64,000 bases of DNA from Panopea generosa (lineage: Eukaryota; Mollusca; Bivalvia; Adapedonta; Hiatellidae): NCBI GenBank assembly GCA_029582155.1, contig CM055899.1:52224520-52288519 (forward strand), read 5' to 3'. Shown here piece after piece: positions 619 through 63,295 of this stretch (the stretch's first letter is position 1; the number at the start of each line of letters is the position of its first letter). The position numbers and the translations under genes are program-made. The notes under the pieces are model-generated. The model saw only the letters and a program-made list of their open reading frames with translations, had not been told where the DNA came from and ran no database searches.

Positions 619-3600
619 CTGGAACAGAACAATAACATATTATCTTTAAATTGAATAAATACATGTAGTTTCTTTAATTTGATGGTGAAGTAAGATTAGA
701 GATTTTGTTTCTTTGGATGGAGATTTGTGTTTTTTCCAACAGTTATTTCAGTATTTTAGTCTGCACCCTTAATTAACATTCCTTGGATCCTATATGTGAT
801 TACCCAGTACTCGCCACACCTTACCTCTATAAACCAGCCTACTTCCACACAAATTCAGAGCGACAATATTCATGGTAGCAGAACAAAGTTAACGGATAAT
901 CATCCCAGAGGATGTGACTTGGTGAGCTCACGACCTCTGGATTGACAGTTAAGTGCGTGGCCAACTGAGTCAGCCAGGTCAGCCAGGAGCTTTTGTAATT
1001 CTGTTTCCTGACATTCACAATATTTCCTGATATGCTGCCATTTAATTGTCACTAAACAATACCTCAACTATTCACACTATCCTGTCACCTGATCATCCAG
1101 TTTGATAAATATTACACACCAAGCGAGAAAACTAATGCACAACATAATGACTTTTCGGTTTTTTATTCCATTATTTGACATCCTTTAAGGCATATCTTTC
1201 TATGAAACACTCAACTCCAAAACAAACCTTACAGTTTTGTTTCCTAAATATTTGTTACACTGCATATCCAATTTCATTAAAAACTAATATTTATGCTGAA
1301 TTATCCATTGCCACCATCTAATTTGGAGTGTGGGTCTGTGCACAAACCCAATGCACGAATATTGCAAATCGTACAATTAACCCGCTCTCTGCATATCATG
1401 AATTTCATGTGAAAAAAGGTTGCACTCATGGTTAAAACACATGTTCAGAATAAAAAATTTACAAGACTTTCAGCATCAGCTGAGCAACAATCGACGTTCA
1501 GAAGCAGCAGTGAGATCAATTCCATGTTGCACAATGCGTGCAATGCATAGCAACCCGCGGTGGCAACATGCAATATTGACAGTAAAAATGGAGCAATTGG
1601 GTAGTCAATCTTAAGATCAAATAAGTAAAAACGCTAAAAATGAAACTTTTGTTATGTTTTGATTAAAAAAGAAATGATCTTTTTATACATTATATGTAAA
1701 AAATCGTGTTTTCCTTTATTAACTTCTGACATACAAGTGAAATAAAAAGTGCAAGGTTTCTTTTGGAGTCGAGTGTATAATGTACATGTACTTTGCTCTT
1801 GCTGATGCTCTTTACAGAAGAATAAAACACATTGACCAAACTGGAAAAAACATAAAAACAGGACCAATTTTGCACCCACCTTGGACAAGTCAACACCAGT
1901 AAGTGCCTGTACAGCTGGGGGGAGTTGACTAATGAGCCGGCTGACCTCTGATGTAGTTCTGTCATCACCAACAAGCACGATCTCGTCAGTTTTCGAAAGT
2001 GGTGCAGATACCTCAGCAGCAATCTGAAATATAATAGTAGAGTGTCATATAATTGTATATTGTTTCCCCGATACCTAGACAGTCACATGTCGGTTTTAGA
2101 CGAAATTCCTTTTTCTTTTTATATATATCTATCTATCTGACATTAAATCAAACCCTTGCTGGGAACCTAGACTGGAGCGTCACTGACAAGACGGTTAATA
2201 TAATAACAGTTGACAGGTTAAAAGGATGCCAGTACAGGGTTAGTTTTTAAAAGATTAAAAATAAAGCAGGTTCCCAATGAGAGACATGTTTAACTTGACT
2301 AACAGGTGAGCTGAACTCAAGCAGGGGCTTTGCTACTACAGACGGTGCCAGGGCATTCCAGAGGACGATGGTTCTCAGGAAGAAAGAGTACTTATAATAT
2401 TCAGTACTGGTCTGAATTTGACAATAGGATAATAAATGTGACGATCTACGAGGGTTAGTAATATGGGCCAGTTCTTGTAAAGATTACACTGATGAGGCCT
2501 CAGTGACTCCTTTCCTTTCATTCAGCTTGATATTTCCGCTCATGCAGACAATTAATGAACAAGAAAAGTGGAAATTCAGTGGGAAATTCCCCAAAAACCA
2601 TATTTTTTCAAACATTTTAGCTATTCTGTAACTATAACTCTATTTCATGTCAGAATTTTATGTACATTGAATCAGAAAATAAAAAAAGCATACAATTCAA
2701 TTTTGTTTTTTTATTTGTAAAACACTGATGCAATAGTTGTGTTTAAAAAGCATGAAATAAAGTTTTTCTCTTGTTTCTGTGCTATTCACTGGTTGGTTGG
2801 CTAAAATATTACTTGTGTAATTCATATTATGAAAGATGTAATGTGATTATACTCGGAAACAAACATGAATATTCATAAAATAATACATAAATATTTTCAC
2901 ATTTTGCATTGAGGCTAACTTGGTGGTATTGTTTCCAGTGCCCACCGATAGGAAGTAAGTCACACATGCTCAACTGATAGCAACAATTTCTTAAACACGA
3001 TGTTTGATTCTACAATATTACAAAAAGCTTCAAACATTATGAGAAATTCAGCCGTGTTGTAAACATTTTAAACGGACCTGTACATTTCTCTTATAAATCA
3101 TTTGTATTTTTTATAATATTTTTGCCTCATGGCTATCAACTGAGCAAAGACACCATAAACCATTTTCAAGATAAAAAAGTGCATGTTAATGGAGTTTCAT
3201 TTTAATATATATCAACACATCATTCCAAACGTTTTTAGTATACTCATGAAAATGACAAAAGAAAAAGATTATTTTTACTTTACTGTTAGAAAAATTGTAT
3301 AAGTTAAATATATAAATTGTATAAGGAAACAATCAATTTTAGCATTTTTGACTAATTTAAGGGCCATAACTCTAAAGATAATGATAAGAACTTGCTTGTT
3401 ATCAAACTTGGCTCAAATTTTATAGAGATACACACTTTGTGTAAGTTGGCTTCAGTTCAGATAAAGAATAATCTAGTTATTGAGAGGAAACATTAAATTT
3501 TAGCATTTTTGGCTAATTAAAAGGCCATAACTCTAAAGATAATGGTCCGTATTGGCTTATTATCAAACATGGCCTAAATTTTATAGTGGTTCACACTTTG

Positions 3601-6600
3601 TGTAAGTTTGCTTCAGTTCTGATAAAGAATAATTTAATTATTGAGCAGAAACGGTAAATTTTAGCATTTTTGACTAATTAAAGGGCCATAACTCTAAAGA
3701 TAATGATAAGAACTGGCTTGTTATCAAACTTGGCTCAAATTTTATAGAGATACACACTTTGTGTAAGTTGGCTTCAGTTCAGATAAAGAATAATCTAGTT
3801 TTTGAGCGGAAACATTAAAATTTAGCATTTTTGACTAATTAAAAGGCAGTAACTCTAAAGATAATGGTCCGTATTGGCTTGTTATCAAACATGGCCTAAA
3901 TTTTATAGAGGTTCACACTTTGTGTAAGTTTGCTTCAGTTCTGATAAAGAATAATTTAGTTATTGAGCGGAAACATTAAATTTTAGCATTTTTGACTAAT
4001 TAAAGGGCCAAAACTCTAACGAAATGATCCGTATTGGCTTGTTATCGAACATGGCCTAGATTTTATAGAGGTTCACACTTTGTGTAAGTTGGCTTCAGTT
4101 CTGATAAAGAATAATCTAGTTATTGAGCAGAAACATTCAATTTTAACATTTCTGACTAATGAAAGGGCCATAACTCTAAAGGTAATAGTCTGAATTGGCT
4201 GGTTATTGAACTTGGCCTAGATTTTATAGAGATTCACGCTTTGTGTAAGTTTGCTTCAGTTCTGATAAAGAATACTCTAGTTATTGAACAGAAACGGGCA
4301 ATTTTAGCATTTTTGACTAATTAAAGGGCCATAACTCTAAAGATGATAGTCCGTATTGGCTGGTCATCAAGCTTGTCCTATATTTTAGAGGTACACACTT
4401 TGCGTAAGTTTGGTTCAGTTCCGATGAAAAATACTCTAGCTATTGAACAGAAACAGGTAATTTTAGCATTTTTGACTAATCAAAGGGCCATAACTCTAAA
4501 GATAATGGATCTTATTGGCTGGTTATCAAACTTGGCGTAGATTTTATAGAGGTACACACTTTGTGTAAGTTTGGTTCAGTTCCGATGAAAATTTATTGAA
4601 TGGAAACAAAAAACTTGACACCGACCATCCACCTGCCAGCCCGCTGACTTCGCCAATCTAATAACCAGGTTTTCAACTTTGAAAAACCTGGTTAACAATT
4701 GTGGTTTGCCACTTCTTGAAAAGATGGTTATTGAAAATTCTAAATGTTTATATTTGGGGGATCCCAACTGACCCCTTATAGAAATGAAAGCACCTTGAAG
4801 AAAACAATGGTGTTTCATACCTCACGAGGACTAAACACTGGAGAATAAATCCAAAGGAAATTTGTTTTTCTTTTTTCTGTTTTCACTGGTATTCCTACAT
4901 AAAATTAAAAGTTCCTTTTACCAGGGACCCCAATGGAACGTAGCCCCTTGATAGAAATCAATTTAAACCCCTGGTCCCAGTTTCACTAAACATCTTAAAT
5001 TGAGATTTTTCTCGACTCAGATTTTTGAAAAGCAGTAACTTAATTTACATCAATACATTAATTGATTGATTGAATATTTAGCATCATTTTTATGCCATCG
5101 AGGGCTAACAGACGATCAATACATTGAAGATATTGCATGTTATCTTCTATCATCAACATTTATTCCTTCTTCAATTCTGTGTGATCATTTAATGTGTCAG
5201 AAGTTTAAGTTAGTATTTAGTTAATTTTGGATTAAGGAAAATCTCAGCTTGACTGGTCCCTGGACATAAGGATGATAATATGCAACACATGTGTACAGTC
5301 AAACCCGTCTAAAGCAGCCAGTCAAGGGAAGTGGCATTTCAAGACAGGTTGTTGCTTAAAACAGGTTAGTTTATTCTGAAATAATAGAAATGGGAAATAG
5401 CAAATGTCGCTGCTTAAGACAAATGGCTGCTTAATAGAGGTGGCCCCTTACACAGGTTTAACTGTACAAGCAATTTGGATGACAATTTTGAAGAAGAAGA
5501 AAAATATTTGAAACTCACAATTTTAACATTTAAACCCTAAATGCTTCAGTTTCAACTTGAATTAGATATTTGTCGAAATACATGTAGATGAATGAAATGG
5601 TTATTATCTGTTATCTCATGGTATTCTTAAGTGACAATCACTGGGTACCACATTTGAGTATTAATAAATAGGTTAACAGGAAACATATATTTTACTTGTG
5701 GCCTTGCAAAAGATATGAAAAGCATGTATACAGTTATATATTTCAAAATATACTGTATTAATCTTTTCTGACACAAGGTATTTCAAAATTTACATTGACG
5801 TAATTACGAAATACATATACTCCAATCAATTTCACAATACTGTACAAAAATGTTGAAACAAATGCATACAAATCACTACCATAAAACCAATCCTTTGTCA
5901 TTAAAAAACATTTCTAAACAAAAAACTAAAACCAGAGAAATTATGAACAGATTACAAGTATAGAAAAAATAATTTAGCAGTTGTTTTAGAAAAGTTAATA
6001 TCAACAATTTTGTTCTTTTTACGAACCTTCAGACTTTTTTTCTTCACATGATTCAGAAGCAATGACCTGACCCATTCCAATGATAATGATGTGAGAACAA
6101 GCATGTAAATTTGTTTCAATATTGATGGAGGAAGACAACAGCATAAATCTGAGTCAAACCGCTGTTAATTACCTTGGGCAGAGTTTCCAATACCAAACTC
6201 AACATAGCAGCCTCACCATACTGTTTGTAGGCTGAAGCCTTCAGCCTCATTCTCTCAGCTTCGGCCTTACCCACAGCTTCAATAGAGGTAGCCTCGGCAC
6301 TACCGATAAGCCTGATACTCTCTGCTTCAGCACGGGCAACTTCAACTGTCTGCGTTCTGTAGTCAAATGTGAATTAAGTATGATAACAGTTTGTATTTTA
6401 AAACAAAAATTCAACATTTTAGACTATGAAGTAATTAATGTGAGGATTTAATTTTTACAGAGATTTAATCTTTTTCAAAATTGTTTTTAACACGTGTAAA
6501 CCACACAAAACTTGACGAAACTAGACTAAAATGAACAGTTCATAACCGTTATCACTCATAGTCAGCCTTTTTTCTTTGAAATTTAATTTTTCACTTTGTT

Positions 6601-9600
6601 ACTTTGTATTTAGATAAAGACATTTTACATATTTTTCACCACACAACTCATGTCATCACACACTTGATATTCAACCTTGTGAACATATTTTAAGATAATC
6701 TTGTGTCAATAAGATTCACACACTCGCTATGCATCACATATAACAAAACAATATAACCTCATTCGTCATAGCTTATGACTTTCTTATACATTACTTAAGT
6801 CATAAACGTTACTGTGTTGCAGTCTAACAACAAAAACTAACCTTTGACCCTCGGCCAATGTCTCAAGCTTGTAAGCAGAAGCCTCAGCTGGGCGTTTCAC
6901 AGTGGCAATCAGTTCCTTTTCTTTACGCAGGATTTCCTTCTCCTCAATGTCGATTAACTTCTTCCTCTCCACAACGTCAATCTCAATTTCCTCAGCTCTG
7001 ATCTTCTGTCGCTCCTTTGCACTTTGAAGCTCGTATGCAAGCTGTGACTCAGCTTTCTACACATAATAAACAAAACCCATTATTGATATTTTAACCCTTT
7101 ACTTCATATAGACGCCTTTGGACACCAAATAGAGAAGGCTTTGGAATTATTTGGTGAATTATGTTTATATTAACTGACAGATTGGAAAACAGTGCAGGAA
7201 GAGGAGTAAAGGGTTAAGGCAAAAACACATGACATATTTAAATACAGAGCTGGGAAAACTTCAAAGAACCTTACTGAAAATTTATCCATGCCCTGAATGA
7301 ATGCAACACGCTGAAGCATGTACATATTTATTTTATATTTTTAGACAAAATCGCATCACGACACATATGTGTATTATGACACAGCACTAGTCAAACTTAA
7401 CAGAAACATCCCAAGACCCATGCAATGAATAAATGAAATACATTAAAGTTCCAACACTTGCTGTGACAACAACAGTAAGGAATATTCAAGACTCACAGAC
7501 AGGGTATATAAACAACCAGCACATACCGATTGACAAGACCAGAAGAGTGAATATACATCAACCCAATACATTAATCCATCAACCCGAGACTGAGCTCAGC
7601 AAGTAAGGATTTATTATATATTCTTACCTTAGCATTGACCTCCATGTCAAAGGCTGCCTTCTGCATCTTGTACTGTCTCTGGGAGTCAGCCACTATGGTG
7701 TCTGCTGCATACTTGGCATCCAAACGTGACTTCTCACATTCTGCTTCCTGCAGGCAGTACAAATATTCTTCAAAATTCTAAATGATTTTAATAGCAAGAC
7801 TGCGAACGAAGATTAAAACTTCTGTGAACTTTTATCAATTTTTTTTTTCTGGGTAGAAGTACTTAATGTTGCTATTGAGAGGCCATCAGGTGAAAGCTTG
7901 TGATTGAACCAAAGACCATTGGTGCGAGTAGTCACTACACTACTGTCACACATCTTAAAGAGATAATTCTTTAAAGTTCAAATAAACTGCAGGTGAATGA
8001 AATTTAAGCAGACAGCTCCTTTAATTTTGGAACAACTGATAAAAAATACACACACACAAAATTAATATACAAATACACCTACCCTGATACCAGCATCCCT
8101 GTTTGCCTCAGCGACACCAATGTCTGCATCTCTCTTCACGTTGGCGGTCTGTGCCCGTCCCAAAGATGAGAGGTATTCCACGTTGTCGAAGATGTCCTTG
8201 ATGGTGAAGCTGAGAATCTCTATACCCATCTTGCCCACATCAGGGGAGGCAACCTCCCTCACAAGCTGGGCGAACTGGTCCCTGTCCTGGTATATTGCTT
8301 CTACGCTGAGTGTTCCTGGAAAATCATCAGTTTGATCAATCTAGTGCTGCCATACCCGTTACCAAAATATGAGAAAAATAGTGACATCATTTCTTGATCA
8401 CAAATGTGCGAAATGGGCCATGTTTCAATCATTCACAATAGTTATGCCCCCTCAAAACAGTAACCAAATTGAGGGTCAGCATAAATTCATTTTAACATGC
8501 AGATTTATCATTTTTCACAAATAATGTTTAAGTTAAAACTCATCAAAATTGTGTAAATCAATTTAACATACCTTCACTGCTTCAAATCTATCTTTACATC
8601 CATGAGTTTATTTATACAGACATATAAAGATGTTAATTATTGTTATCTGAAACTTCATAGTAAAGAAATAATTAACATTGTATTTTCATTAGAATTCTAT
8701 CTGCCACACATGATCATAAATATGTGAAAACAATGCCGTTCAACCATCTACAAGAGTTTCATATTTTATTGATTCAGATAATGTACCTTTCAGAAATACA
8801 TTTAAGAGAAAATTTGACAGAATGAGTATGTTTTTCTTACCGAGGATAGCCCTGAGATGACCCTCGAGAGTCTGCAGAATCACCCTCTGTATGTGCTCTA
8901 CTGACTTTCCAAGGAACTGTTCACAGGCTGTCTTTAGGATATCTGGCTGCCTCATAATCTTACACTGGGCCACACCTGTCACCGTGACTGGAACGCCCTC
9001 TGAGGTCTCAACACTCTCACACTGGGGGTTCAGTGTCATCACCTCCAGAGATATACTGGCAATAAAACAACAAAAAGTCAAAGGCTGATGACTGTAGGGG
9101 TCTGGTAAGTCAGGAGTTTTGACATCAATTTCAACCAGTTACGATTATTAATAAATATTGACAGTCAGTCCTAGTGGTGCACACAATCAAGATACTGACA
9201 GAAAATACCCAACATGCAAGCTTCAATATACAACAATGATTTTGAATGCATTCTTGTATGCATTATTTTAATATGTTTTTATGTTAAAATATACAAACAT
9301 GCTTGTATTTTCAAATCTCTCTGAAGCCCTGCACTGCATATATATATACAAACTTTCAAGTTTCTCAAGCAGGCCATCTATACAAATTCTTTGTTATTTC
9401 CCAACCATTGGTAGGTTATTAGTATTTTGTTGCTGAAAGAATGTGAAATTATTTATGAAATGAAAGTAAATTGTTCTAAAACTAGTGATTTTATTTTTTT
9501 TTAATAAAAAGGACTACAAAATGTCTTGGGCAGGATGAGTTCAGTACAACAAACATTTACTTTTATACATGTTTTCTGGCGAATTGCAAAATCAAATATG

Positions 9601-41600: not shown

Positions 41601-42281
41601 TAGTACTATTATTTTATACATTTATAGCCATTTTTCCTAATGTACTGCCTTAAATGTCAGAGATACTGATCATGAATCGTCAAAAATGCCATATTTTACC
41701 AGGAGTGTACATACTCCAAACACTTCCAGTTGACATTGGATCCTCACAAAACTTACAAAGTAGTGACATACTCAAAATATCTTATTTATTAACCCTTTAC
41801 TCCATAGATATGCGTTTTCCCGCACCAATCACAGAAGGCCTTTGAAAACAGTGCAGAAAGAGTTCAGATTGCTCGTAACGAGCAATCTGAACACTTCCTG
41901 CACTGTTTTCCACTCTATCAGTTAATATAAACATAATTCACCGATTGCTGATACGTGGTGAATTAATGCTTTCAATATTAGAGGTGTCCAAAGGCGTCTA
42001 TATTAGAGGTGTCCAAAGGCGTCTATATTAGAGGTGTCCAAAGGCGTCTATATTAGAGGTGTCTAAAGGCGTCTATATTAGAGGTGTCCAAAGGCGTCTG
42101 TATGAAGTAAAGGGTTAATGATAATGAGATTCTTTGTATTCATTTTATGAAAAAATCCCACGTACACGTACAACACGTGGGCTTGTACTTGATTTACATC
42201 ATAATTGTAATGCTGATATCTTATTTTCAGGAAACAAGAGGGATACCGTCCAAGAAGCCGCAGCCTGATTATTTCTTGTAG
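20644..42281 (+). CDS. PPP4C: Protein phosphatase 4 catalytic subunit (PP4c), complete
   Basis: PP4c is a PPP-family Ser/Thr phosphatase that works with R2/R3 regulatory subunits in DNA repair, centrosome function and signalling. Exons are 20644-20669, 27225-27348, 28298-28450, 29333-29506, 30179-30305, 38844-39033, 39968-40046 and 42231-42281. All are GT-AG and in phase, and together give 307 aa, the usual PP4c length. Metal and catalytic residues are in place: GDIHG (D54, H56), GDFVDRG (D82, R86), RGNHE (N114, H115), HGG (H164) and RAHQ (H238). The C-terminus is DYFL, the site of Leu carboxymethylation. PP4-specific stretches such as [20 protein letters not shown] rule out PP2A and PP6. An ATG 3 nt upstream (20641) is also possible; 20644 was chosen because MGEVSDLDR aligns with the usual MAEISDLDR. 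Introns total about 20 kb. Confidence 0.98.
20980..21001. repeat. (TA)n microsatellite
   Basis: Uninterrupted TA dinucleotides in PP4c intron 1. Confidence 0.9.
22641..22776 (+). mobile_element. SINE, 5'-truncated
   Basis: GCGGGTTCGATCCCCAGCTC (box B), CTGGTTATACACAGGAAG and the tail AAGCTCTGAGCTTTCATCGC match the SINE at 17551, but the box-A half is missing. Immediately left of an hAT insertion. Confidence 0.65.
22795..23899. mobile_element. Non-autonomous hAT-like element with 8-bp TSD
   Basis: 1105 bp flanked by the exact 8-bp duplication GTATAAAC (22787-22794 and 23900-23907). The ends are TAGTGTTGGCAA and, inverted, CAGTGTTGTTAC, the classic hAT CAGTGTTG start. Internal sequence is AT-rich without a transposase ORF. 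PP4c intron 1. Confidence 0.85.
25254..25461. mobile_element. TTAA-flanked MITE, copy 2
   Basis: 208 bp from TTAACCCTTTAGTTCATATA to ATTAAGGGTTAA. Contains GGAAGTGTTCAGATTGCTCG and its inverted partner ATTCCTGCACTGTTTTC, with the tip of the hairpin partly lost. Confidence 0.85.
26076..26478 (+). repeat. 27-bp minisatellite, about 14 copies
   Basis: The unit contains TTACCTCTATGATTTGACAT followed by ACAATTA. Because 27 is a multiple of three, long reading frames appear on both strands: a 9-residue repeat YNYYLYDLT on plus and a 9-residue repeat SNHRGNNCM on minus. Lies within PP4c intron 1. I treat these frames as repeat artefacts. Confidence 0.9.
26815..27135 (+). repeat. Dispersed repeat, copy A
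   Basis: AGAATCTAACATGGGTTTGA, TATCCCAAGGGACTGAATTT and CTACCCTAGGGTGAGAT recur in inverted order at 43155-43480. About 320 bp, diverged. PP4c intron 1. Confidence 0.5.
27225..27348 (+). CDS. PPP4C: PP4c coding exon 2
   Basis: Acceptor TCTTGCAG. Encodes [20 protein letters not shown] through to VDSPVT. Ends in phase 0 before a GTATGT donor. Confidence 0.97.
28298..28450 (+). CDS. PPP4C: PP4c coding exon 3
   Basis: 51 codons, [16 protein letters not shown] to FLLLLALK, carrying the GDIHG and GDFVDRG metal-binding motifs. Confidence 0.98.
29043..29317 (+). mobile_element. tRNA-headed SINE with intact TTAA empty site
   Basis: AGTTAGCTCAGTTGGTAGC and AATCCAGGGGTCATGAG form a degenerate tRNA-like head. 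The body continues through GCTGATTCAAGTGGGGAAAT to CTTAATATTCAATCAA. It aligns end to end with the SINE at 52387-52905, except that the latter has a MITE at the TTAA found here at 29271-29274. PP4c intron between exons 3 and 4. Confidence 0.75.
29333..29506 (+). CDS. PPP4C: PP4c coding exon 4
   Basis: 58 codons, [20 protein letters not shown] to [11 protein letters not shown], with the RGNHE motif. A SINE tail ends about 15 bp before its acceptor. Confidence 0.98.
29795..29935 (+). mobile_element. SINE-like fragment
   Basis: CCTCTCACTGCTGAGGTCTT then GTGATTGAGCC looks like a degraded tRNA-type box B, followed by GCCAGTTACTTGCAGATGG. Ends are unclear. Confidence 0.35.
30179..30305 (+). CDS. 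PPP4C: PP4c coding exon 5
   Basis: Encodes [20 protein letters not shown] to LLWSDPE plus one base; contains metal ligand H164. Followed by an 8.5-kb intron. Confidence 0.97.
30409..31519. mobile_element. hAT-like element with 5-bp TSD
   Basis: 1111 bp between 5-bp repeats TTGAA (30404-30408 and 31520-31524). The ends are inverted: CAAAGTTCGCACAGAT and, from the right, CAGGGTTCATACAGAT. The subterminal block AAAAGTGCTTGA is also repeated in inverted orientation. No transposase. PP4c intron between exons 5 and 6. Confidence 0.75.
32333..32795 (+). repeat. 463-bp direct repeat, copy 1
   Basis: Matches 33352-33814 with a constant offset of 1019 bp and only a few substitutions (e.g. CCTCTACTT versus CCCCTACTT). 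It begins GTGCCACCATTGC and ends CAATGGTGGGGTTACACC, imperfect inverted termini. Confidence 0.9.
33352..33814 (+). repeat. 463-bp direct repeat, copy 2
   Basis: Second copy, with no indel relative to copy 1. About 556 bp of unrelated AT-rich sequence lies between the copies. Confidence 0.9.
34290..34663 (+). repeat. Two tandem ~187-bp units
   Basis: AGCTTTTTCTCTGTTTCTGA, CATAAACACATT and TTAAAGTTTTTTGTT occur in each of two consecutive diverged units. Confidence 0.75.
34963..35453. mobile_element. 491-bp TTAA-targeting element with long TIRs
   Basis: Flanked by TTAA (34959-34962 and 35454-35457). Terminal inverted repeats of about 105 bp start AGCAACACATCCAC; both arms contain TGAGCACATTTCCCATACA. 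The uninterrupted target, GTATTAAATCAAATACTGTG, is present 120 bp upstream at 34831-34850, and the broken version resumes as AATCAAATACTCAG after the element. No ORF. Confidence 0.88.
36315..36448 (+). mobile_element. SINE fragment followed by poly-G
   Basis: GTGGTGTCCCTGGGCAAGAC and GCTGGTCCTACCCAGGAAG belong to the SINE body seen at 39710. It ends in a run of 22 G at 36449-36470. Confidence 0.6.
36449..36470. repeat. Poly-G tract (22 G)
   Basis: A run of G in PP4c intron 5; its length may be an assembly or polymerase artefact. A shorter run lies at about 11886-11897. Confidence 0.85.
37007..37520 (-). pseudogene. Decayed LINE reverse transcriptase C-terminus
   Basis: The minus strand encodes [17 protein letters not shown], a C-X2-C-X7-H-X4-C zinc-knuckle-like pattern found after the RT domain of many LINEs, preceded by [12 protein letters not shown]. 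The upstream part ([28 protein letters not shown]) is in another frame, so a frameshift lies near 37365-37385. No full RT is present. PP4c intron 5. Confidence 0.7.
38163..38250. repeat. GT-rich microsatellite
   Basis: Interrupted GTGTGG/GTGTGT repeats; the open frames on both strands here are low-complexity artefacts. Confidence 0.85.
38265..38470 (+). mobile_element. tRNA-headed SINE, internally shortened
   Basis: ATCAATCCAGGGGTCATGTG, CACAGTCTCCGTGATGATTG and the tail TTAGCCCTTGATGGCATAAC match the family at 29043 and 52387, with the middle missing. Confidence 0.65.
38471..38740 (+). mobile_element. Second tRNA-headed SINE
   Basis: GCATTGGTCTAGTAGTAGAG (box-A-like) and GTGTTCAATTCCCAGCCAGG (box-B-like) head a body of about 200 bp directly following the previous SINE, just upstream of PP4c exon 6. 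Confidence 0.55.
38844..39033 (+). CDS. PPP4C: PP4c coding exon 6
   Basis: Encodes [20 protein letters not shown] to VWSAPNYCY. It contains metal ligand H238 and the SAPNYCY active-site loop. Human has DTTGWG where this reads DMQGWG. Confidence 0.97.
39710..39905 (+). mobile_element. tRNA-headed SINE
   Basis: AACGCGTTGCCAAGTGGT and GTTGTGGGTTCAATCCTGCG, then GTGGTGTCCTTGAG, TACTGGTCCTACCTGGGAAG and AATAACTTGTCTTCCAATTG. Same family as 52127 and 15500 (minus). It ends about 60 bp before PP4c exon 7. Confidence 0.7.
39968..40046 (+). CDS. PPP4C: PP4c coding exon 7
   Basis: Encodes [20 protein letters not shown] then FEAAPQ; acceptor CCCTCAG, donor CAG|GTAAGT. Confidence 0.97.
41789..42118. 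mobile_element. TTAA-flanked MITE, copy 3 (expanded)
   Basis: 330 bp, opposite orientation to the other copies, from TTAACCCTTTACTCCATAG to TATGAAGTAAAGGGTTAA. It contains the perfect palindrome AGATTGCTCG/CGAGCAATCT and, at one side, five tandem 25-bp units with GAGGTGTCCAAAGGCGTC (about 41980-42105). In the last PP4c intron, ending 112 bp before exon 8. Confidence 0.88.
42231..42281 (+). CDS. PPP4C: PP4c last coding exon
   Basis: Encodes [16 protein letters not shown] then TAG, keeping the C-terminal DYFL used for carboxymethylation and regulatory-subunit binding. Confidence 0.97.
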   Translation, partial: ETRGIPSKKPQPDYFL

Positions 42282-50965: not shown

Positions 50966-53900
50966 GTATGCTGTTATGTTTACACACACCTCCATTGTCA
51001 CGCTCCTTTCCAACGGTCATCAGTTTCTGTATCATATGCACGAATTAAAAGCGGAGAAATCGTCCACTGACTATTCAGCGTTTTTCATTGTTAAATCATC
51101 TAAAAAGAGCTACATGATATAATATGAAGTATTATACCAATTAATGGGCCTCACTATGAAACCGGATATAGATTTACTTCCTGTGGAAAACAAATAGATT
51201 CTGGTATTTGTATTATAATAATGTACGAAGCAATTAAACATATTGCAATTAGATCACATGCCCCATATCGATTGCATGTGACGGAAGAGACATTGTCAAA
51301 TACAGTATTTTTCCTAAAAGTAGAGGTCGACAGCTCGGACATAGCATCCATACATATTCAAGGGCAAACACTGAGATATTAATTTGTCCCGATTTTGGCA
51401 AGTTCAAAATATTGTCCTAGATCGTTTGGTGATATAACTACTGTTAGTTTGGTAAAAATACAATATCAATATAGTCCTGATTTGCTCATCTGCCGCCATC
51501 TCGATAGTTCTTCGAAGAGGAATGCTAAAGATTGGCTGAAGGCGCATGTACATGGGATTTGATTTAACTTAAAATTTTAGTAACAGCGGTCATTTTGGGT
51601 TTGAAATAACCACCTTAAATTTATTGATTATATATATTCTGTATAAGTTTGGTTGAAAGCAATTGAAAATTGGCGGTCCTAGTCTTTGTTTTATATTTTA
51701 AAATATAGATTCCAATGACCATCTGACGTCGACTATAGAAGAACAGACTCGACTCATCGCGTCTGTCACTGCTGAAAACGGCCATTATGCATACGACCTT
51801 AAAGACAGTAAATACCAACTGGCGAAAGTTGTCGAGGAGAAGTGTAATTTTGAAGGTAAACTATGTTTTTATAAATGTTGTTTTTCAGTGTGGTTGTCGT
51901 TTTATCAGCTAAGCATTGTCAAATAAATGTAGAGCATTTACAGGATTTAGAAATACAGTTAAAGTAAACCCCTTCATGAAATCTTTGTCACTATGTCGGG
52001 TGCGCCACATCAGAAGGTATTTAGTCACGTCCGATTATTTACCTAGTTACGGGTGTGATTTTAGATAAATAGTGTAAAGGTGTTTAACGTCCTGTTTTAC
52101 ATATCACATGTTATATAGCAACCAGGTGGAGCTCGTGGTCCAGTGGTAAAGCATGGGCCACATGGTCGGAGAGTCGTTGGTTCGATCCTCCCTGGACTGT
52201 CGTTGGTTTGGCTATGTATGGTGTCTTTTAGCTAGACATTTTCCGCAATTAATTAGTACTGGTTCTGCATAGGAAGACTTCGAGCGTGATTTGTCTAAGT
52301 TGTAAGAACTTGTTTCATAATCGAAGTATCATAAATAATTAAGTTTGTACTAACCAGTTTTAGCAGTGGAAGAAGACCTCAGGCAATGCGGGTTAGCTCA
52401 TTTGGTAACGCGTCTGATTATCAATCCAGGGGTCGTGAGTATGAATCTCCGCCTGGCCACAGTCTTCGTATTAATATTACGGTATTGCGTATCATTGCCA
52501 TTCGTCTCTCACTGCTGATTGAAGTGGGAAAGTTATCAGTTACTTGCGGAAATGGTTGTTCTCGAGTAGACCTACTGTTTAACCTCCCAGGATCCCTTAG
52601 GTCAAGTTAACCCTTTATTTCATATAGACGCCTTTGGATACCTCTAATATAGACGCATTTGGATACTTAATATAGAAGGCTTTTGAATTATTGGGTGAAT
52701 TATGTTTATATTAACGGACAGAGTGGAAAACAGTGCAGGAAGTGTTCAGATTGCTCGTTACGAGCAATCTGAACTCTTCCTGCACTGTTTTCAAAGGCCT
52801 TCTGTGATTGGTGCAGGAAAACGCGTATCTACGGAGTAAATGGTTAAGCGATTATCTGTTAGCCCTTTATGGCATAAATGACGCTAAATATTCAATCAAA
52901 ACACCAGACTCATGAAAATTAAATGAACTCAGAAAAATAACTTGCAGACCTTCTCATATAAAGCGTTTTTGCTTAGCTGTAATCGAAACAATGACCTCAG
53001 ATAAACCTTAATAAACTTAATGTGTTTATTTCACAGTGGCGTACAAGGCTGTAAAAGACAGTCTAGGGCGAGCCAAGACGAAGTTACAATTTACCCAGAA
53101 TGATCTAAAGGCAGTCAACTACCAACAGCGAGATCTCAAAGCGGAACTGGAAATGCTTAACAAAAATAAAATCTGCATGACTAGCAAGATTAAAGAAATG
53201 GAGGAGGACATTAGGAGTAAGACAGGTATGTTTATTAAGACTACATTTTGTTGTATATAAAATTATAACGCTATTTTAATTGGTTATTACGCGTCCGATT
53301 TGTGTAATTATTTCTCATTATTTGATAGATTGTGTTTAACGTCATATTTTGTTCGGCATTTATTTTTATTGGAGGAGAAAGGGTTGAGAAATCCTTAAGG
53401 ACACCATTATTTCGTAAGTAACTGGCAAAAAAGTTTTCGGACCGAGTTGTGCTCGAACCGATGACCAGCAAAGGTGGCGGGCAAGGGTTCTTCAAACTGC
53501 ACTTCAGATATATCGACCTGCGAATGCTTTTATTTAATCAAATGATGAGCGAGTTGCTAGATTATTTGCAATTGCAGATCACAATATTTTCTACTTTTGC
53601 TTAGTGTTTTCCATCGTCTTTATAGCAGATTCATGTGCCTCTAACAGTTTAAGACGTTTCACTCCATGTTTTGTTTCAGATACTGTAGATAATTTGACAA
53701 TGGAAAACGTAAATGTAACTCAGACCAACCAAACTTTAGAAAAACAACTAACAATTACACAGAACGCTCTTGCCGCGGAAACTGAAAAGTGCATGCAACT
53801 CGAAAAAGACTTTCATTCTAAAACAGGTAAGGAGTATAGACCTCTCTATTCAGGAATAAATCCTTCATTTATTACGCAAGATATCAGCAAGATCAGGTTT

Positions 53901-56900
53901 GCTCTCCTTTGCATCCACCCTGTTCAACGTATACGTTAAACATTAACAAACGATTCTCAATTACTTAATAAGCGCAAACAAAGATGTGTTTGTTCTGATA
54001 AATAACACAAATTGTGTAAATTACATGATCTGTTAGTACATAAGTTACTATTCTCTTTAATTTAACTACCCCAAGTTGCTATTCTCTTTAATTTACCCCA
54101 GGTTAAATAGGTTATACTATTTTTTATTAATTCCAGATAAAATCGTTCATTTTAATTGTTTCAGTTGTTTTAAGTTTGTTTTTGTCATTTACGGGATTAG
54201 CTAAACCTTAACTTATTACATTGAATATCGTGTTTGTTATGGCTGAAGTAGGAATAATAACGTATTATGTGTCTTGCAGGAATTTTTACATCAGATATAT
54301 ACTTAAGGCCAAACGTCTTGCACGGATACCTTAAAATGTAATATAGATAGTAAAGATAGCAGATCGTACCTTTGATTTTGTGTCATGTTTAACAATAAAA
54401 AATTTAATATAATCTGCCCGTATTTCATATTTCAAAGATACTATAACAGTGGATATCATGTTTGTTTCAGCCAAAACAAGGATGTTATAACATTGAATAT
54501 ACTATTTGTTTCAGCCAAATCAAGGATATTATAACATTGGATATCATGTTTGTTTCAGCCAAAACAAGGATATTATTACATTGGATATCACGTTTGTTTC
54601 AGCAAAAACAAGGATATTATAACATTTGATATAATATTTGTTTCAGCCAAAATAAGGATATTACCACATTGGATATCATGTTTGTTTCAGCAAAAACAAG
54701 GATATTATAACATTGAATATAATATTTGTTTCAGCCAAAACAAGGATATTATTACATTGGATATCACGTTTGTTTCAGCCAAAACAAGGATATTATAACA
54801 TTGAATATAATATTTGTTTCGGCAAAAACAAGGATATTATAACATTGAATATCACGTTTGTTTCAGCAAAAACAAGGATATTATAACATTGGATATAATA
54901 TTTGTTTCAGCCAAAACAAGGATATTATAACAATGGATATCACGTTTGTTTCAGCAAAAACAAGGATATTACCACATTGGATATCATGTTTGTTTCAGCC
55001 AAAACAAGGATGTTATAACATTAAATATAATATTTGTTTCAGCCAAAACAGGGATGTTATAACATTGAATATATGTTTGTTTCAGCCAAAACAAGGATAT
55101 TCTAGCATTGGATATCACGTTTGTTTAAGCAAAAACAAGGATGTTATAACATTGGATATCACGTTTGTTTCAGCCAAAACAAGGATATTATTACATTGGA
55201 TATCACGTTTGTTTTAGCAAAAACAAGGATGTTATAACATTGAATATCATATTTGTTTCAGCCAAAACAAGGATAGTATTACATTGGATATCGCGTTTGT
55301 TTCAGCCAAAACAAGAATATTCTAATATTGGATATCATGTTTGTTTCAGCCAAAACAAGGATGTTATAACATTTAATATAATATTTGTTTCAGCAAAAAC
55401 AAGGATATTATAACATTGAATATCACGTTTGTTTCAGCCAAAACAAGGATGTTATAACATTGGATATAATATTTGTTTCAGCCAAAACAAGGATATTATA
55501 ACATTGGATATCACGTTTGTTTCAGCCAAAACAAGGATGTTATAACATTGGATATCACGTTTGTTTTAGCAAAAACAAGGATGCTATAACATTGAATATA
55601 ATATTTGTTTCAGCCAAAATAAGGATATTATAACATTGGATATCACGTTTGTTTCAGCCAAAACAAGGATGTTATAACATTGAATATAATATTTGTTTCA
55701 GCCAAAACAAGGATATTACAACATTGGATATCACGTTTGTTTCAGCCAAAACAAGAATATTATAACATTGGATATCACGTTTGTTTCAGCAAAAACAAGG
55801 ATATCACGATTGTTTCAGCCAAAACAAGGATATTATAACATTGGATAACATGTTTGTTACAGCCAAAACAAGGATGTTATAACATTGAATATAATATTTG
55901 TTTCAGCCAAAACAAGGATGTTATAACATTGGATATCACGTTTGTTTCAGCAAAAACAAGGATATTATAACATTGAATATACTATTTGTTTCAGCTAAAA
56001 CAAGAATATTATCACATTGGATATCACGTTTTTTTCAGCAAAAGCAAGAATATCACGTTTGTTTCAGCCAAAACAAGGATATTATAACATTGGATATCAT
56101 GTTTGTTTCAGCCAAAACAAGGATTTTATAACATTGGATATCACGTTTGTTTCAGCCAAAACAAGGATATTATAACATTAAATATCACGTTTGTTTTAGC
56201 AAAAACAAGGATGTTATAACATTGGATATCATGTTTGTTTCAGCCAAAACAAGGATATTATAACATTGGATATCACGTTTGTTTCAGCCAAAACAGGGAT
56301 GTTATAACACTGGATAGCACGTTTGTTTCAGCCAAAACAAGGATGTTATAACATTGGATATCACGTTTGTTTCAGCCAAAACAAGGATGTTATAACATTG
56401 GATATCAAGTTTGTTTCAGCCAAAACAAGGATGTTATAACATTGGATATCACGTTTGTTTCATCCAAAACAAGGATATTCTAACATAGGATATCACGTTT
56501 GTTTCAGCATAAACAATGATATTATAACATTGGATATCACATTTGTTTCAGCATAAACAAGGATATTATAACATTGTATATCACGTTTGTTTCAGCCAAA
56601 ACAAGGCTATTATAACATTGGATATAATATTTGTTTCAGCCAAAACAAGGATATTATAACATTGGATATCATGTTTGTGTCAGCCAAAACAAGGATATTA
56701 TAACATTGGCTATCACGTTTGTGTCAGCAAAAACAAGGATATTATAACATTGGATATCACGTTTGTGTCAGCAAAAACAAGGATATTATAACATTGGATA
56801 TTATGTTTGTTTCAGCAAAAACAAGGATTTATAACATTGGATATTATGATTGTTTCACCCAAAACAAGGATATTATAACATTGGATATCACATTTGTTTC

Positions 56901-59900
56901 AGCCAAAACAAGGATATTATAACATTGGATATCATGTTTGTTTCAGCATAAACAAGGATATTATAACATTGGATATCATGTTTGTGTCAGCTAAAACAAG
57001 GATATTATTACATTGGATATCATGTTTGTGTCAGCCAAAACAAGGATATTATAACATTGGATATCACATTTGTTTCAGCCAAAACAAGGATATTATAACA
57101 TTGGATATCACGTTTTTTTTTCAGCCAAAACAAGGATATTATAACATTGGATATCACGTTTGTTTCAGCAAAAACAAGGATATAATAACATTTTATATTA
57201 TGTTTGTTTCACCCAAAACAAGGATATTATAACATTGAATATCACTTTTGTTTTAGCCAAAACAAGGATATTATAACATTTGATATTATGTTTGTTTCAG
57301 CAAAAACAAGGATATTATAACATTGGACATTTTGTTTGTTTCAGCAAAAACATGGATATTATAACATTGGATATTATGTTTGTTTCACCCAAAACAAGGA
57401 TATTATAACATTGGATATCACGTTTTTTTTCTGCCAAAACAAGGATATTATAACATTGGATATTATGTTTGTTTCACCCAAAACAAGGATAATTATAACA
57501 CTGGATATCACGTTTGTTTCAGATAAATTTGAGGCGTCTGATCAGCTAACGAAACAGCTAAATCAACAACTGCGAGAGCTTGAACAAGAGTTCTGTACTA
57601 TGAAAATGACAAAAGATAAACTAGAAAATGAGCTCGGAGCAGCTAATGAATGTTTGAAATACGAAGTTGTTATACTCTCAAGTAAGTACAGAGTCACGGT
57701 ACTTTGAAATGTTGATATCGAGTGAGGTCCCAACACTTATCAACAGCCCATGCTGCTCCTAGAAATATTCATGTTTTATATATCAAACTCACAACCTCAG
57801 CATCATACACTGTACTTTGCTCTTGATGCGGAGTAAATCTAACTGTTCAAACAATTATTCAGGATAACTCTTCTTCTTTCTCCTTCCCTAAATTATATGC
57901 ATATTTTAAAGTAATTCTTAAACTATATTAAACTATGTCCTAAACTATATTAAAGGATTTACTAAACTATATTAAAGGATTTAATAAACTATATTAAAGT
58001 ATTTCCTAAACTATATTAAAGGATTTCCTTATCTATATCAAAGTACTTCCTAAACTACATATTGTATATCAAAGTATTTCCTTAACTATATTAAAGAATT
58101 TACTAAACTATATTAAAACATTTCCTTATCTATATCAGTGTACCTCCTAGACTACATATTGTATATCAAAGTATTTCCTAAACTATATTAAAGGATTTCC
58201 TAAACTATATTAAAGTATTTCCTAAACTATATCAAAGGATTTACTAAACTATATTAAAGGATTTAATAAACTATATTAAAGTATTTCCTAAACTATATTA
58301 AAGGATTTCCTTATCTATATCAAAGTACTTCCTAAACTACATATTGTATATCAAAGTATTTCCTTAACTATATTAAAGAATTTACTAAACTATATTAAAA
58401 CATTTCCTTATCTATATCAGTGTACCTCCTAAACTACATATTGTATATCAAAGTATTTCCTAAACTATATTAAAGGATTTCCTAAACTATATTAAAGTAT
58501 TTCCTAAACTATATCAAAGGATTTACTAAACTATATCAAAGGATTTCCTAAACCATATGAAAGAGTTTCCTAAACAAAATCAAAGGATTTACCAAACTAT
58601 ATCAAACTATTTCAAACTAAAATATATTGAAGGATTTACAAAACTATATTAAAGGATTTCCTAAACTATATCAAAGGATTTATTAAACTGTATTAAAGGA
58701 TTTTCTAAACTTTATTTAGGATTTCCTAAACTATATTAAAGAGTTTCCTAAAAAACAATAAAGGATTTCTTAAACTATATTAAACAATTTCCTAAACTAT
58801 ATTAAAGGATTTACTAAATTATATCAAAGGATTTCCTAAACTATATTAAAGGATTTACTAAACTATATAAAAGGATTTCCTTTACTGTATTAAATAATTT
58901 CCTAAACTATATTGAAGGATTTCCTAAACTGTATTAAAGGATTTCCTAAACTATATTAAAGGATTTCCTAAACTATATTAAAGGATTTCCTAAACTATAT
59001 CAAAGGATTTATTAAACTGTATTAAAGGATTTTCTAAACTATATTAAAGGATTTACTAAACTATATGAAACAATTTCTTAAACTATATGAAAGAGTTTCC
59101 TTAACAAAATTTAAGGATTTACTAAACTATATCAAAGGATTAACTAAGCTATATGAAAGAATTTCCTAAACAAAATTAAAAGATTTACTAAACTTTATCA
59201 AAGGATTTACTAAACTATATGAAAGAGTTTCCTAAACAAAATTAAAGGATTTCCTAAACTATATCAAAGGCTTTACTAAATTATATTAAAGGATTTCCTA
59301 AACTATATTTAAGGATTTCCTAAACTATATTAAAGGATTTCCTAAACTATATTTATGAATTTCCTAAACTATATTAAAGGCTTTACTAAAATATATTAAA
59401 GGCTTTCCTAAACTATATTAAAGGATTTCCTAAGCTATATAAAAGGCTTTACTAAACTATATTAAAGGATTTACTAAACTATATTAAAGAATTTCCTATA
59501 CTATTTTAAAGGATTTCCTATACTATTTTAAAGGATTTACTAAACTATATTAAAGGATTTACTAAACTATATTAAAGAATTTCCTATACTATTTTAAAGG
59601 ATTTCCTAAACTATATTAAAGGATTTACTAAACTATATTAAAGGATTTACTAAACTATATGAAACAATTGACCAAACTATATTAAAAAATTTCTTTAACT
59701 ATATTAAAGGATATCCTAAACTATATTTAAGGATTTACTAAACTATATGAATCAATTTCCTAAACTATATTAAAGGATTTCATAAATTATATTAAAGGAT
59801 TTCCTAAATTATATTGAAGGAATTCCTAAACTAAATTAAAGGATTTCTTAAACAAAATTAAAGTATTTCCTAAACTATATTATAGGATTTTCTAAACTAA

Positions 59901-62900
59901 ATTAAAATATTTCGTTACTATATTAAAGAATTTCTTAAACTATATTAAAGTATTTCTTAAACTGTATTAAAGAATTTCCTAAACTAAATCAAAAGATTTC
60001 CTAAACAAAATTAAAGTGTTTCCTAAACTAAATCAAAGGATTTCCTAAACAAAATTAAAGCATTTCCTTAACTATATCAAAATACTTTCTCAACTACATA
60101 TTGTATATCAAGGTATTTCATAAACTATATTAAAGGATTTCCCAAATGATTTTCTAAACTATATTAAAGGATTTCCTTAACTATATTAAAGGATTTCTTA
60201 AACAAAATTAAAGTATTTCCTAAACTATATTAAAGGATTTCCTAAACTATATTAAATAATTTCCCAAACTATATTAAAGGATATCTTCAACAAAAATAAT
60301 GGATTTCCTCAACTAAATTTAAGGATTTCCTAAACTAAATTAAAGCATTTCTTTAACTATATCAAAATACTTCCTCAACTACATATTGTATATCAATGTA
60401 TTTCCTAAACTATATTAAAGGATTTCCTAAACTATATTAAAGGATTTCCTAAACTATATTAAAGTATTTGCTAAACTGTATTAAAGGATTTACTAAACTA
60501 TATTAAAGGATTTCTTAAACAAAATTAAAGCATTTCCTAAACTATATTTAAGAAATTCCTAAACAAAATATAAAATGTTTCCTAAACTATATAAAAGGAT
60601 TTCCTAAACTAAATTAAAGCATTTCCTTAACTATATCAAAATACCTCTTTAACTACATATTGTATACTAAAGGATTTCCTAAACTGTATTAAATGATTTC
60701 CTAATCTTAATAAAAGTATTTACTAATCTGTATCAGAGTTTTACCTAACTATATTAAACTATTTCCTAAACTATATAAATGAATTTGCTAAACTAAATTA
60801 AAGGATAACCTAAACTATATAAATTAATTTGATAAACTATATCAATAAATTTCCTAAACTATATTAAAGGATTTCCTAAACTATATTAAAGGATTTCATT
60901 AACTATATTAAAGGATTTCCTAAACTATATTTATGAATTTCCTAAACTATATTAAAGGATTTCCTAAACTATATTAATGAATTTCCTAAACTAAATTAAA
61001 GGATTTCTTAAACTATATTAATGAATTTGCTAAACTATATTGATGAATTTCCTAAACTATATCAATCAGTTTCCTAAACAATATTAAAGGATTTCATAAA
61101 CGAAATAAAAGAATTTCCTAAACTATATTTATGACTTTCCTAAACTTAATTAAAGGATTTCCTAAACTGTACTGAAATATTTGCTGAACTTTAGAGTTAA
61201 GTTTATCCTGAACTGTATTAAAATATTTGCTGAACTATATAAAGTATTTCACATAAGGTAAATTTCTCTCAGTTTTATCTTGTTTAATTTTCAGAGGCGT
61301 TGAAGAAAAAGCGAGAAAAAATTCTAAAACTAAATGAAGACAAACTTCTTATAATGGTAAGTTCTCTTCATCTTGCACTTTATGGTGTTTTAAACAATTG
61401 ATACGACTTTTCAGCTTATTATATCATTTCATCTCCTCGGATAAATTCTCGAACTTGCTAAATTAAATAATTAATGTCCAAGTTACGGCATTTAAATGAT
61501 CAAATACAGTTTAATATGTCAACACCTACATGTAACTGTCAACATGTATATATATCAGTCAACACCAACAACACCTACCTGTATCAGTCAACATCTATAA
61601 CACCTGCCGGTATCAGTCAACACTTACCTGTATCAGTCAACACATACAACACCTACCTGTATAAGTTAACACTTACAACACTAACCTGTATCAATCAACA
61701 CATATAACACCTACCTGTATCAGTCAACACTTACAACACCTACCTGTATCCGTCAACACCTACCTGTATCAGTCAACACCTACAACACCTACCTGTATCA
61801 GTCAACACCTACATCACCTACCTGTATCAGTCAACACCTACCTGTATCAGTCAACACCTACCTTTCTCAGTCGACATTTAAAACACCTACCTGTATCAGT
61901 CAACACTTACCTGTATCAGTGAACACCTACAACACCTATCTGGATCAATCAACACCTATCTGTATCAGTCAAAACCTACAACACCTACCTGGATCAGTCA
62001 ACACCTACCTGTATCTGTCAAAACCTATAACCCCTGCATGGATCAGTCAACACCTACCTGTATTAGTCAAAACCTACAACACCTACCTGGATCAGTCAAC
62101 ACCTACTTGTATCAGTCAACACCTACCTGTATCAGTCAACACCTACCTGTATTAGTCAACACGTACCTATATCATCAGCACATACCTGTATCAGTCAACA
62201 CCTAACTGTGTCAGTCAACACCTAACTGGATCAGTCAACACCTACATGAATCATTCAACATCTATCTGTTTCAGTCAACACCTACATGTATTAATCAACA
62301 CCTATCTGTATCAATTGGTCAACACCTACCTGTATCCATCAACACTTACCTGTATCAGTCAACACCTATCTGTATCAGTCAACACCTACCTGTATCAGTC
62401 AACATCTACCCGTTTCAGTCCACACCTACATGTATCATCAGCACGTACATATATCGATTGGTCAACACCTACCTGTACCAGTCAGCACCTACCTGTATCT
62501 GTCAACACCTACCTGTATCATCAGCATCTACATGTATCGATCGGTTAACTCCTACCTGTATCAGTCAACACCTACAACACTTACCTGTATAAGTCAACAC
62601 CTACATGTATCAGTCAACACCTATCTGGTTTTGTTAACACCTACAAGTATCAACCAACACCTACCTGTTTTGGTCAACACCTATATGTATCAGTCAACAC
62701 CTACCTGTATCAGTCAACACCTACCTCTATCAGTCAACATCTACCTGTTTCAGTCAATACCTACATGTATCGTCAGCACCTACGTGTATCAATCGGTCAA
62801 CACCTACCTGTTTCAGTCAGCATGTACCTGTATCCGTCAACACCTACATGTATTGGTCAACACGTACATGTATTGGTCAACGCCTACATGTATTGGTCAA

Positions 62901-63295
62901 TACCTACCTGTATCAGTCGACACCTACCTGTATCAGTCAACACCTACATGTTTGGTTAGCACCTACATGTATCGTTCAGTAAACACCTACCTGTATCGAT
63001 CAACACCTGCCTGTATCAGCCAACACCTTCCTGAATCAGTCAACACCTACCTGTATCTGTTAATTACCAAAAGTTATGCATAATTTTTTTTTACTTTTTC
63101 ATTCAATGTCGGTTATGCTGAGTTCGTGGCCCTTTCAAGTGGGAGATATGAATTCGCTGAATGTCTTGTTTATTTAAGTAAATATACATATATATATATA
63201 TATACCTTTTCAGTCTTATTACCAAGACAAACTCTCCAGCAATCCTGATGCTGATTGCCATCAAGGAACCAGTATAATAACATATGGAGCAACAG
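50885..63295 (+). CDS. Unrecognised coiled-coil protein, partial (7 exons)
   Basis: I do not recognise this gene. Exons are 50885-50965, 51709-51855, 53037-53225, 53680-53826, 57523-57681, 61295-61356 and 63214-63295. All have GT-AG borders and one continuous frame; the first five are phase 1-1. The first visible exon encodes a basic, aromatic stretch (DVPDEGSWFRCFKRRHNKKK), which could be a juxtamembrane or nuclear-localisation segment. The next exons give about 230 residues rich in Glu, Lys, Gln and Leu with heptad-like spacing (IEEQTRLIASV, QRDLKAELEMLNKNK, QTLEKQLTITQNALA, LTKQLNQQLRELEQEF), then a polar tail (DKLSSNPDADC). The last donor (CAG|GTATTC) shows that it continues past the window. 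Introns 4-6 are filled by three different minisatellites. Confidence 0.75.
51709..51855 (+). CDS. Coiled-coil gene exon
   Basis: 49 codons (phase 1-1): DSNDHLTSTIEEQTRLIASV to VVEEKCNFE. Acceptor AAATATAG is weak in pyrimidines; donor GAAG|GTAAAC. Confidence 0.7.
52127..52345 (+). mobile_element. tRNA-headed SINE
   Basis: GCTCGTGGTCCAGTGGTAAA (box-A-like), GTTGGTTCGATCCTCCCTGG (box-B-like), GTACTGGTTCTGCATAGGAA, then TAAGAACTTGTTTCATAATC. Intron of the coiled-coil gene. Confidence 0.75.
52387..52905 (+). mobile_element. tRNA-headed SINE interrupted by a MITE
   Basis: The left part (52387-52606) starts GCGGGTTAGCTCATTTGGTA and ATCAATCCAGGGGTCGTGAG. The right part (52848 to about 52905) reads GCGATTATCTGTTAGCCC and TAAATATTCAATCAAAAC. 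Together they match the SINE at 29043-29317; the MITE at 52607-52847 sits between them. Confidence 0.8.
52607..52847. mobile_element. TTAA-flanked MITE, copy 4 (inside a SINE)
   Basis: 241 bp from TTAACCCTTTATTTCATATA to GGAGTAAATGGTTAA. It has the complete hairpin with CAGATTGCTCG and TACGAGCAATCTG at its tip and two copies of the GACGC(C/A)TTTGGATAC subunit. The right terminal CCC is altered (ATGG). Confidence 0.88.
53037..53225 (+). CDS. Coiled-coil gene exon
   Basis: 63 codons (phase 1-1): VAYKAVKDSLGRAKTKLQFT through QRDLKAELEMLNKNK to EEDIRSKT. Acceptor TTTCACAG, donor ACAG|GTATGT. Confidence 0.8.
53680..53826 (+). CDS. Coiled-coil gene exon
   Basis: 49 codons (phase 1-1): DTVDNLTMENVNVTQTNQTL to LEKDFHSKT. 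It ends in SKT like the previous exon, and its acceptor TTTTGTTTCAG resembles the 44-bp repeat motif in the next intron. Confidence 0.8.
54441..57522 (+). repeat. 44-bp minisatellite bearing splice-acceptor motifs, ~70 copies
   Basis: The unit joins GGATATCACGTTTGTTTCAG and CCAAAACAAGGATATTATAA, followed by a short CATT link. The period is 44 bp. Variants exchange CACG/CATG/AATA and CAGCC/CAGCA. Almost every unit has TTTGTTTCAG, and the last unit provides the real acceptor of the exon at 57523. Since 44 is not a multiple of three, open frames cycle through three units (FQPKQGYYNIGYHVC, FSQNKDIITLDI, VSAKTRIL); they are repeat artefacts. Confidence 0.95.
57523..57681 (+). CDS. Coiled-coil gene exon behind the 44-bp array
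   Basis: 53 codons (phase 1-1): DKFEASDQLTKQLNQQLREL to ECLKYEVVILS. Its acceptor, ATCACGTTTGTTTCAG, is the 3' edge of the last 44-bp repeat unit. Confidence 0.85.
57917..61255 (+). repeat. 22-bp AT-rich minisatellite, ~150 copies
   Basis: Units of AAAGGATTTCCTAAACTATA plus TT, with frequent ACTAAAC, CTTATC and CAAAATTAAAG variants. There are higher-order blocks, including a 282-bp tandem duplication (57955-58236 and 58237-58518). It fills almost the whole intron between the exons at 57523 and 61295. Confidence 0.95.
61295..61356 (+). CDS. Coiled-coil gene exon
   Basis: Enters in phase 1 and leaves in phase 0: ALKKKREKILKLNEDKLLIM. Acceptor TTAATTTTCAG, donor ATG|GTAAGT. Confidence 0.8.
61517..63065 (+). 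repeat. 20-bp minisatellite, ~77 copies
   Basis: Unit CTGTATCAGTCAACACCTAC. None of the three forward frames of the consensus has a stop, so it yields long frames with a 20-residue cycle (VNTYLYQSTPTCISQHLPVS), up to 217 codons. It fills the intron between the exons at 61295 and 63214 and has no coding support. Confidence 0.95.
63214..63295 (+). CDS. Coiled-coil gene exon, last in window
   Basis: Phase 0 to phase 1: SYYQDKLSSNPDADCHQGTS then IITYGAT. Acceptor CCTTTTCAG, donor CAG|GTATTC. Confidence 0.75.

Follow-up and report, generated by a model that had tools for sequence, protein, structure and literature searches.

Structure of the intron array

The window analysed here is a 64,000-nucleotide stretch of the genome of the bivalve Panopea generosa (GenBank assembly GCA_029582155.1, contig CM055899.1, positions 52,224,520 to 52,288,519 of the forward strand), and the element in question is a tandem array of acceptor-like units that stops at the 3' end of one intron of a predicted gene. 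The gene lies on the + strand, and its model, built from sequence alone, comprises mostly phase-1 exons with a frame that stays open across six predicted exons. Array units upstream of the last one are referred to as decoys. The features of the gene and its array are as follows.

51709..51855, + strand: predicted exon of the gene, 147 nt
53037..53225, + strand: predicted exon of the same gene, 189 nt
53680..53826, + strand: predicted exon before the array, 147 nt, phase 1 at both ends; the acceptor of this exon likewise ends in TTTGTTTCAG
54433..57522, + strand: tandem array of 71 units of ~44 bp, each with a branch-like TATAAC, a short T-rich tract and usually CAG (Tandem Repeats Finder (TRF), alignment, motif counts)
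57345..57477, + strand: units 68-70, the three nearest decoys, all lacking the AG (CAC, CTG, CAC; alignment)
57478..57522, + strand: last array unit, the acceptor of the exon at 57523 (sequence, alignment)
57523..57681, + strand: predicted exon after the array, 159 nt, phase 1 at both ends
61295..61356, + strand: predicted exon of this gene, entered in phase 1 and left in phase 0; weak genome match (E 0.004)
63214..63295, + strand: predicted exon of this gene, entered in phase 0

TRF returned the repeat as a single array at 54433-57522 with a period of 44 and 69.9 copies, and alignment resolved 71 units, including a partial first one and two of 29 bp. An earlier, sequence-only reading had described about 70 tandem acceptor-like units before one exon at 54441-57522; the array and its end are as described, and its true start lies 8 bp earlier. 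Of the 3696 bp of the intron (53827-57522), 3090 bp belong to the array. Its 68 full-length units share a mean identity of 0.895, and the consensus, with reading begun after each AG, is CCAAAACAAGGATATTATAACATTGGATATCACGTTTGTTTCAG. The motif TTTGTTTCAG, said by that reading to be in each 44-bp unit, occurs 53 times in the window compared with 0.39 expected from shuffles, and is present in exact form in 50 of the 71 units only. The AG is kept in 64 units and a TNAY branch-like motif is found ~24 nt upstream of the unit's end in 65; by a simple rule the branch-like motif, T tract and AG are all present in 52 units, the last included. This last unit (57478-57522) stops exactly at the CAG preceding the predicted exon 57523-57681, and both alignment and the phase-1 gene model bear out the claim that it forms an in-phase acceptor, the donor (53826|GTAAGG) being phase 1 as had been proposed. 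When the genome (1.47 Gb, 39 contigs) was searched with a 90-bp array query, at least 34 matches were obtained, all inside this array.

Variation between units is lower in the T tract and AG columns (mean 0.032 per column) than elsewhere (0.077). Private changes, however, are about equally frequent per column in the two sets (6 in 10 columns and 20 in 34, respectively), and therefore no selection on the motif inside the array is claimed. Recursive splicing within the units was considered and rejected: a ratchet point needs GT after the AG and the units read C there, so that no ratchet point is expected. An Rfam search of the window gave no structured-RNA family at the gathering score, the array had no match in phages, and one exact 23-letter piece of it had none in viral contigs.

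The exon at 57523-57681 has one match in the genome, and skipping it would keep the frame (159 nt, phase 1 on both sides). The 291-residue translation of the host gene matches no Pfam family above cut-off, and the protein looks like a coiled coil. The eight genome matches of the gene revealed no paralogue, either carrying or lacking the array: the five best are the gene itself, and the E values of the rest (0.016-0.36) are weak. The next two introns of the gene (57902-61250 and 61520-63057) are also largely minisatellite, with 22-bp and 20-bp units, and their arrays end ~44 and 156 nt before the respective acceptors, out of register.

Loss of the AG next to the exon

The AG is missing from units 9, 47, 56, 64, 68, 69 and 70, the last three being the decoys nearest the exon. 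This loss was not mentioned in the sequence-only reading, nor were the arrays of the same kind in other genes described below. In the last three decoys, 3 of the 6 AG letters are changed, compared with 4 of 128 in the other 64 decoys counted (P = 0.0017, with units 1, 32 and 38 excluded as gapped), whereas the remaining columns are changed to a similar extent in both groups (7/126 and 181/2684, P = 0.72). Plain decay at the edge of the array therefore does not explain the loss. Given seven dead decoys among 70, the probability that the three nearest the exon are all dead is 0.0006, and a permutation of the positions of AG loss gave P = 0.003. The dead decoys lie 45, 89 and 134 nt from the exon, and their use would lengthen it to 204, 248 and 293 nt, respectively; with the first live decoys, 178 and 222 nt away, it would measure 337 and 381 nt. 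One more dead decoy is found at 310 nt.

Predicted consequences of splicing to a decoy

Splicing from the donor at 53826 to any of the 63 upstream units that carry an AG would bring in a stop before 57523 (63/63), as would be required of a poison acceptor acting through nonsense-mediated decay (NMD). The sequence-only reading had predicted that most copies would encode AKTRIL followed by a stop within seven codons, and this is indeed what the translations give: 47 stop after six codons (AKTRIL and variants), one after five and three after one, so that 51 of 63 stop within seven codons, with 12 stopping later. The proposal that branch-point position governs acceptor choice is compatible with the array, but the branch-like motif is present in 65 of 71 units, so that this position by itself would not distinguish the last unit from the rest.

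Similar arrays in the same genome

A pattern of three T-tract-AG motifs at a spacing of 26-44 matched the genome 912 times, compared with 356 matches for the backward control, and two narrower spacings gave 365 versus 187 and 230 versus 91; the matches within any one array are not independent. A donor motif gave 2428 matches versus 540. The acceptor-motif matches listed on the first contigs for the 26-44 spacing and the first of the narrower ones correspond to about 20 array places, of which 18 loci were examined, those at C4 near 11.72 and 11.87 Mb being left out; they are not a random sample. Four of the 18 were dropped, two (L025 and L080) because the end of the array was not reached and two (L022 and L023) because they resemble copies of a single dispersed sequence in which the unit is repeated few times, which left 14 readable array ends.

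Three of these 14 ends (L020, L077 and L082) stop in register at an exon. The array at L077 has 39-bp units and is followed by an exon that matches RasGEF in Pfam (E 6.5e-13), the match covering residues 1-34 of 34, directly from the acceptor. Its unit also carries 25 nt of the downstream exon, and none of 1550 random draws from the same locus was as good. At L020, on the minus strand, 43-bp units precede an exon that starts 13 nt before an ATG and has no Pfam match; it is predicted to encode a secreted-type, Cys-containing peptide. Here the unit carries 36 nt of the downstream exon (0/865 same-locus random draws as good). Because the units carry exon sequence, L077 and L020 show that intron-exon junctions have themselves been amplified in two genes. 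The array at L082 consists of 23-bp units and its exon matches Anoctamin from the first residue (E 8.6e-5, 22 bits versus a curated cut-off of 28), with a borderline extension of the unit into the exon (P = 0.039).

At the other readable ends, no convincing exon was seen within up to 900 nt past the array in 9 of the 14, by a crude scan. At L053 a possible last exon, judged by eye and with no Pfam family, lies 38 nt beyond the array, and the 44-bp array of L084 stops out of register at a probable exon, without exon extension (P = 0.57). L075 and L076 belong to one family, and the TRF end of L083 is probably not the true end of the array. The same 44-bp TTTCAGGTTGTTTTCTGG-type array seen at L084 occurs at three neighbouring places (G000:C4 near 11.59, 11.72 and 11.87 Mb), at the first of which a probable exon comes next, long, open and Cys-rich and with no Pfam family.

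The state of the nearest decoys can be compared in the three in-register cases, which are few. At L082 the nearest of four regular decoys is dead (CAT, 23 nt), with CAG kept at 46, 69 and 92 nt. At L077, where decoys were counted by pattern, the two nearest, 29 and 55 nt away, read CAA(G) and CAC respectively, and the 15 farther decoys keep an AG. L020 is taken up below.

Comparison with known systems

Tandem repeats of intron-exon boundaries have been described in amphioxus as mirages, with units of 10-72 bp at Adh3 and of ~150-160 bp in globin genes, where BflGb6 has 6 and 3 copies in two haplotypes (PMC3087553). Somatic instability has been reported at Adh3 (PMC3087553), and mirages are reported not to interfere with regular splicing (PMC3087553; PMC3902484). 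The window's array resembles mirages in its tandem units at an intron-exon junction, with many AG or GT signals intact and concerted evolution within the cluster, and its 44-bp unit falls within the Adh3 range. It differs from BflGb6 in having 71 units and from mirages in that its units hold intron sequence only; the passages on amphioxus mirages, moreover, contain no loss of the AG nearest the exon. The array, with its predicted exon, reaches the intron-exon junction in register, as do L077, L082 and L020, but its unit does not span the junction and holds no exon sequence, which would make it a variant of mirages and not a member. L077 and L020, judged by their sequences, fall within the amphioxus definition. 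Nor is the window's array a repeat unrelated to splice signals, as an ordinary intronic minisatellite would be, because its unit has a branch-like site, T tract and AG and stops at the acceptor.

Two other kinds of system invite comparison. Introns and splice sites were reportedly made from tandem arrays in the work of Zhuo et al. 2007. Internal tandem repeats are also described in human segmental duplications (PMC2812944). In these accounts minisatellites are likewise reported to supply or copy splice signals; there, however, the link is with new introns or with exons that have become longer, whereas the window's array lies inside an intron. In NAGNAG acceptors and AG-exclusion zones (PMC3250501, PMC7317903), nearby AGs likewise compete for one exon, but these are reportedly single AGs beside one acceptor, in contrast to ~60 full acceptor units over 3 kb. 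A partial search of the literature, with subscription literature mostly outside its scope, found no such junction arrays outside amphioxus. With three of 14 other readable ends in register and mirages as a match, the window's array is neither unique in its genome nor unprecedented; its distinguishing features are its copy number, its intron-only unit and the dead decoys adjoining the exon.

Origin of the array and rival explanations

The best explanation of these observations, to which we assign a probability of roughly 0.55, is that the end of the intron was amplified, with the last unit serving as acceptor, the near decoys inactivated and the distant ones tolerated. One 3' end with its branch-like site, T tract and AG would have been duplicated in tandem, and the array would then have grown, presumably via unequal exchange, into a 71-unit minisatellite whose last unit, if the gene model is correct, still acts as the acceptor. 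This origin, which the sequence-only reading had taken as the simplest, is shown in L077 and L020; for the window's array it is likely, though short of proof, and is the best though not the only origin, supported because junctions of other genes in the genome have been amplified likewise. Exon definition favours short exons. Since it pairs acceptors with the closest donor downstream across short stretches, distant copies could be tolerated, while copies within ~130 nt of the exon (giving exons of 204-293 nt) may have competed directly and for that reason have lost the AG; exon definition would in this way account for the pattern of loss. Leaky use of the other copies would lead to early stops and probably to NMD. 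A broader generalization, that in this animal 3' splice sites repeatedly become long arrays and that selection removes the AG only within reach of the true acceptor, is put forward tentatively and we would not count on it.

Several observations weigh against amplification of the intron end or the proposed loss of nearby decoys. The last unit matches the rest of the array, but the homology ends at the AG and does not run on into the exon (score 2, P = 0.51); exon sequence within the unit, which would be decisive for amplification of the junction, is absent at this locus. In the genome, the acceptor motif at a spacing of 13-25 is about as frequent as its backward control (227 versus 213), and a motif with the AG destroyed (CTG for CAG) gave 1682 matches versus 559 for its control, exceeding the 912 of the acceptor motif, as do the 2428 of the donor motif. 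Acceptor motifs are thus not enriched among the genome's arrays; repeats of this kind are simply common in the genome, the next two introns included, and the case for amplification rests therefore on register and exon homology and not on counts. The CAC of units 56, 64, 68 and 70 sits on one variant type, found in seven units of which three have CAG. Because dead units 68 and 70 share this type with 56 and 64, the independent losses are fewer than those counted, and near the exon they may number only two or three. The nearest decoy of L077 retains an AG shifted by one base (AAG), and that of L020 is intact, the exon there being, by its reading, a 5' untranslated start.

The main competitor, which we consider a real possibility although a clearly less probable one, is that an ordinary minisatellite within the intron spread to the intron's end and, as its unit happened to hold a T-rich stretch and CAG, took over the role of acceptor, the old acceptor being lost. 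The lack of exon homology in the window's units is what such a takeover would leave, and the many T-rich repeats in the genome, with and without CAG, the out-of-register minisatellites of the next two introns and the array of L084, which ends at a probable exon without clean register, all fit it. It requires, however, that the array came to a halt precisely where the exon starts, its final unit holding branch site, T tract and AG complete, and in L077 and L020 the unit derives from the junction. Some doubt attaches also to the exon at 57523 itself, which might not be real or not used, its register having arisen by chance; no homologue was found and, as noted, the translation matches no Pfam family. 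Against this, the exon is open and phase-matched with its neighbours across six exons, it has a GT donor and an AG acceptor, and its residues, by the analyst's reading, resemble a coiled coil. We consider this explanation very improbable.

Two further proposals concern how the decoys behave. A regulated decoy or NMD switch, suggested by the sequence-only reading, would use internal acceptors conditionally, leading to message decay and setting the protein level. The 52 units with all three signals and the universal early stop are in keeping with such a role, but amplification without use would give identical anatomy, and the nearest decoys are dead, contrary to useful competition. Since amphioxus arrays of this type reportedly leave splicing regular, we regard a regulatory role as unlikely. 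Alternatively, RNA hairpins might hide the decoys, the T tract of internal units pairing with the following AAACAAG, which is missing at the true site. One unit junction folds at -5.8 kcal/mol (z -1.7), with 13 of 200 shuffles as good, and in openness the last unit's branch region comes 16th, 25th and 22nd among the 71, a mild difference in its favour. The true CAG, however, ranks 71, 71 and 68 of 71 in openness under three local-folding settings and the T tract of the true site 45, 55 and 18 of 71, and changes in the stem preserve pairing in 6 of 25 distinct cases, compared with 5.9 expected. Neither local folding nor stem covariation supports sequestration of the decoys, and we give this idea hardly any credence.

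How the spliceosome chooses one AG among equals is an old question, for which an array with 63 AG-bearing near-copies and one true acceptor in a single intron, differing mainly in position, provides a natural test, with further cases of other unit lengths in the same genome. If selection removes the AG only from copies near enough to compete with the true acceptor, the distribution of live and dead units would be readable as a record of the competitors that mattered, and the boundary between dead and live decoys (134 nt dead, 178 nt live; exons of 293 versus 337 nt) would measure the reach of splice-site competition and exon definition. The arrays also suggest that junction arrays of the amphioxus type occur more widely among animal genomes.

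Other features of the window

An inverted repeat at 52726-52792, with 33-nt arms that are 97% complementary and 1 nt apart, would form a strong hairpin and is perhaps the remnant of a small transposon. An array of 25-bp units at 41975-42103 has a reverse-complement relative 10 kb away, at 52622-52683, the relation being judged by eye. On the - strand, at ~1600-9100, lies a flotillin-like gene, the name being the analyst's own reading: one frame matches Band_7 (E 8.9e-10), and a second piece matches no family.

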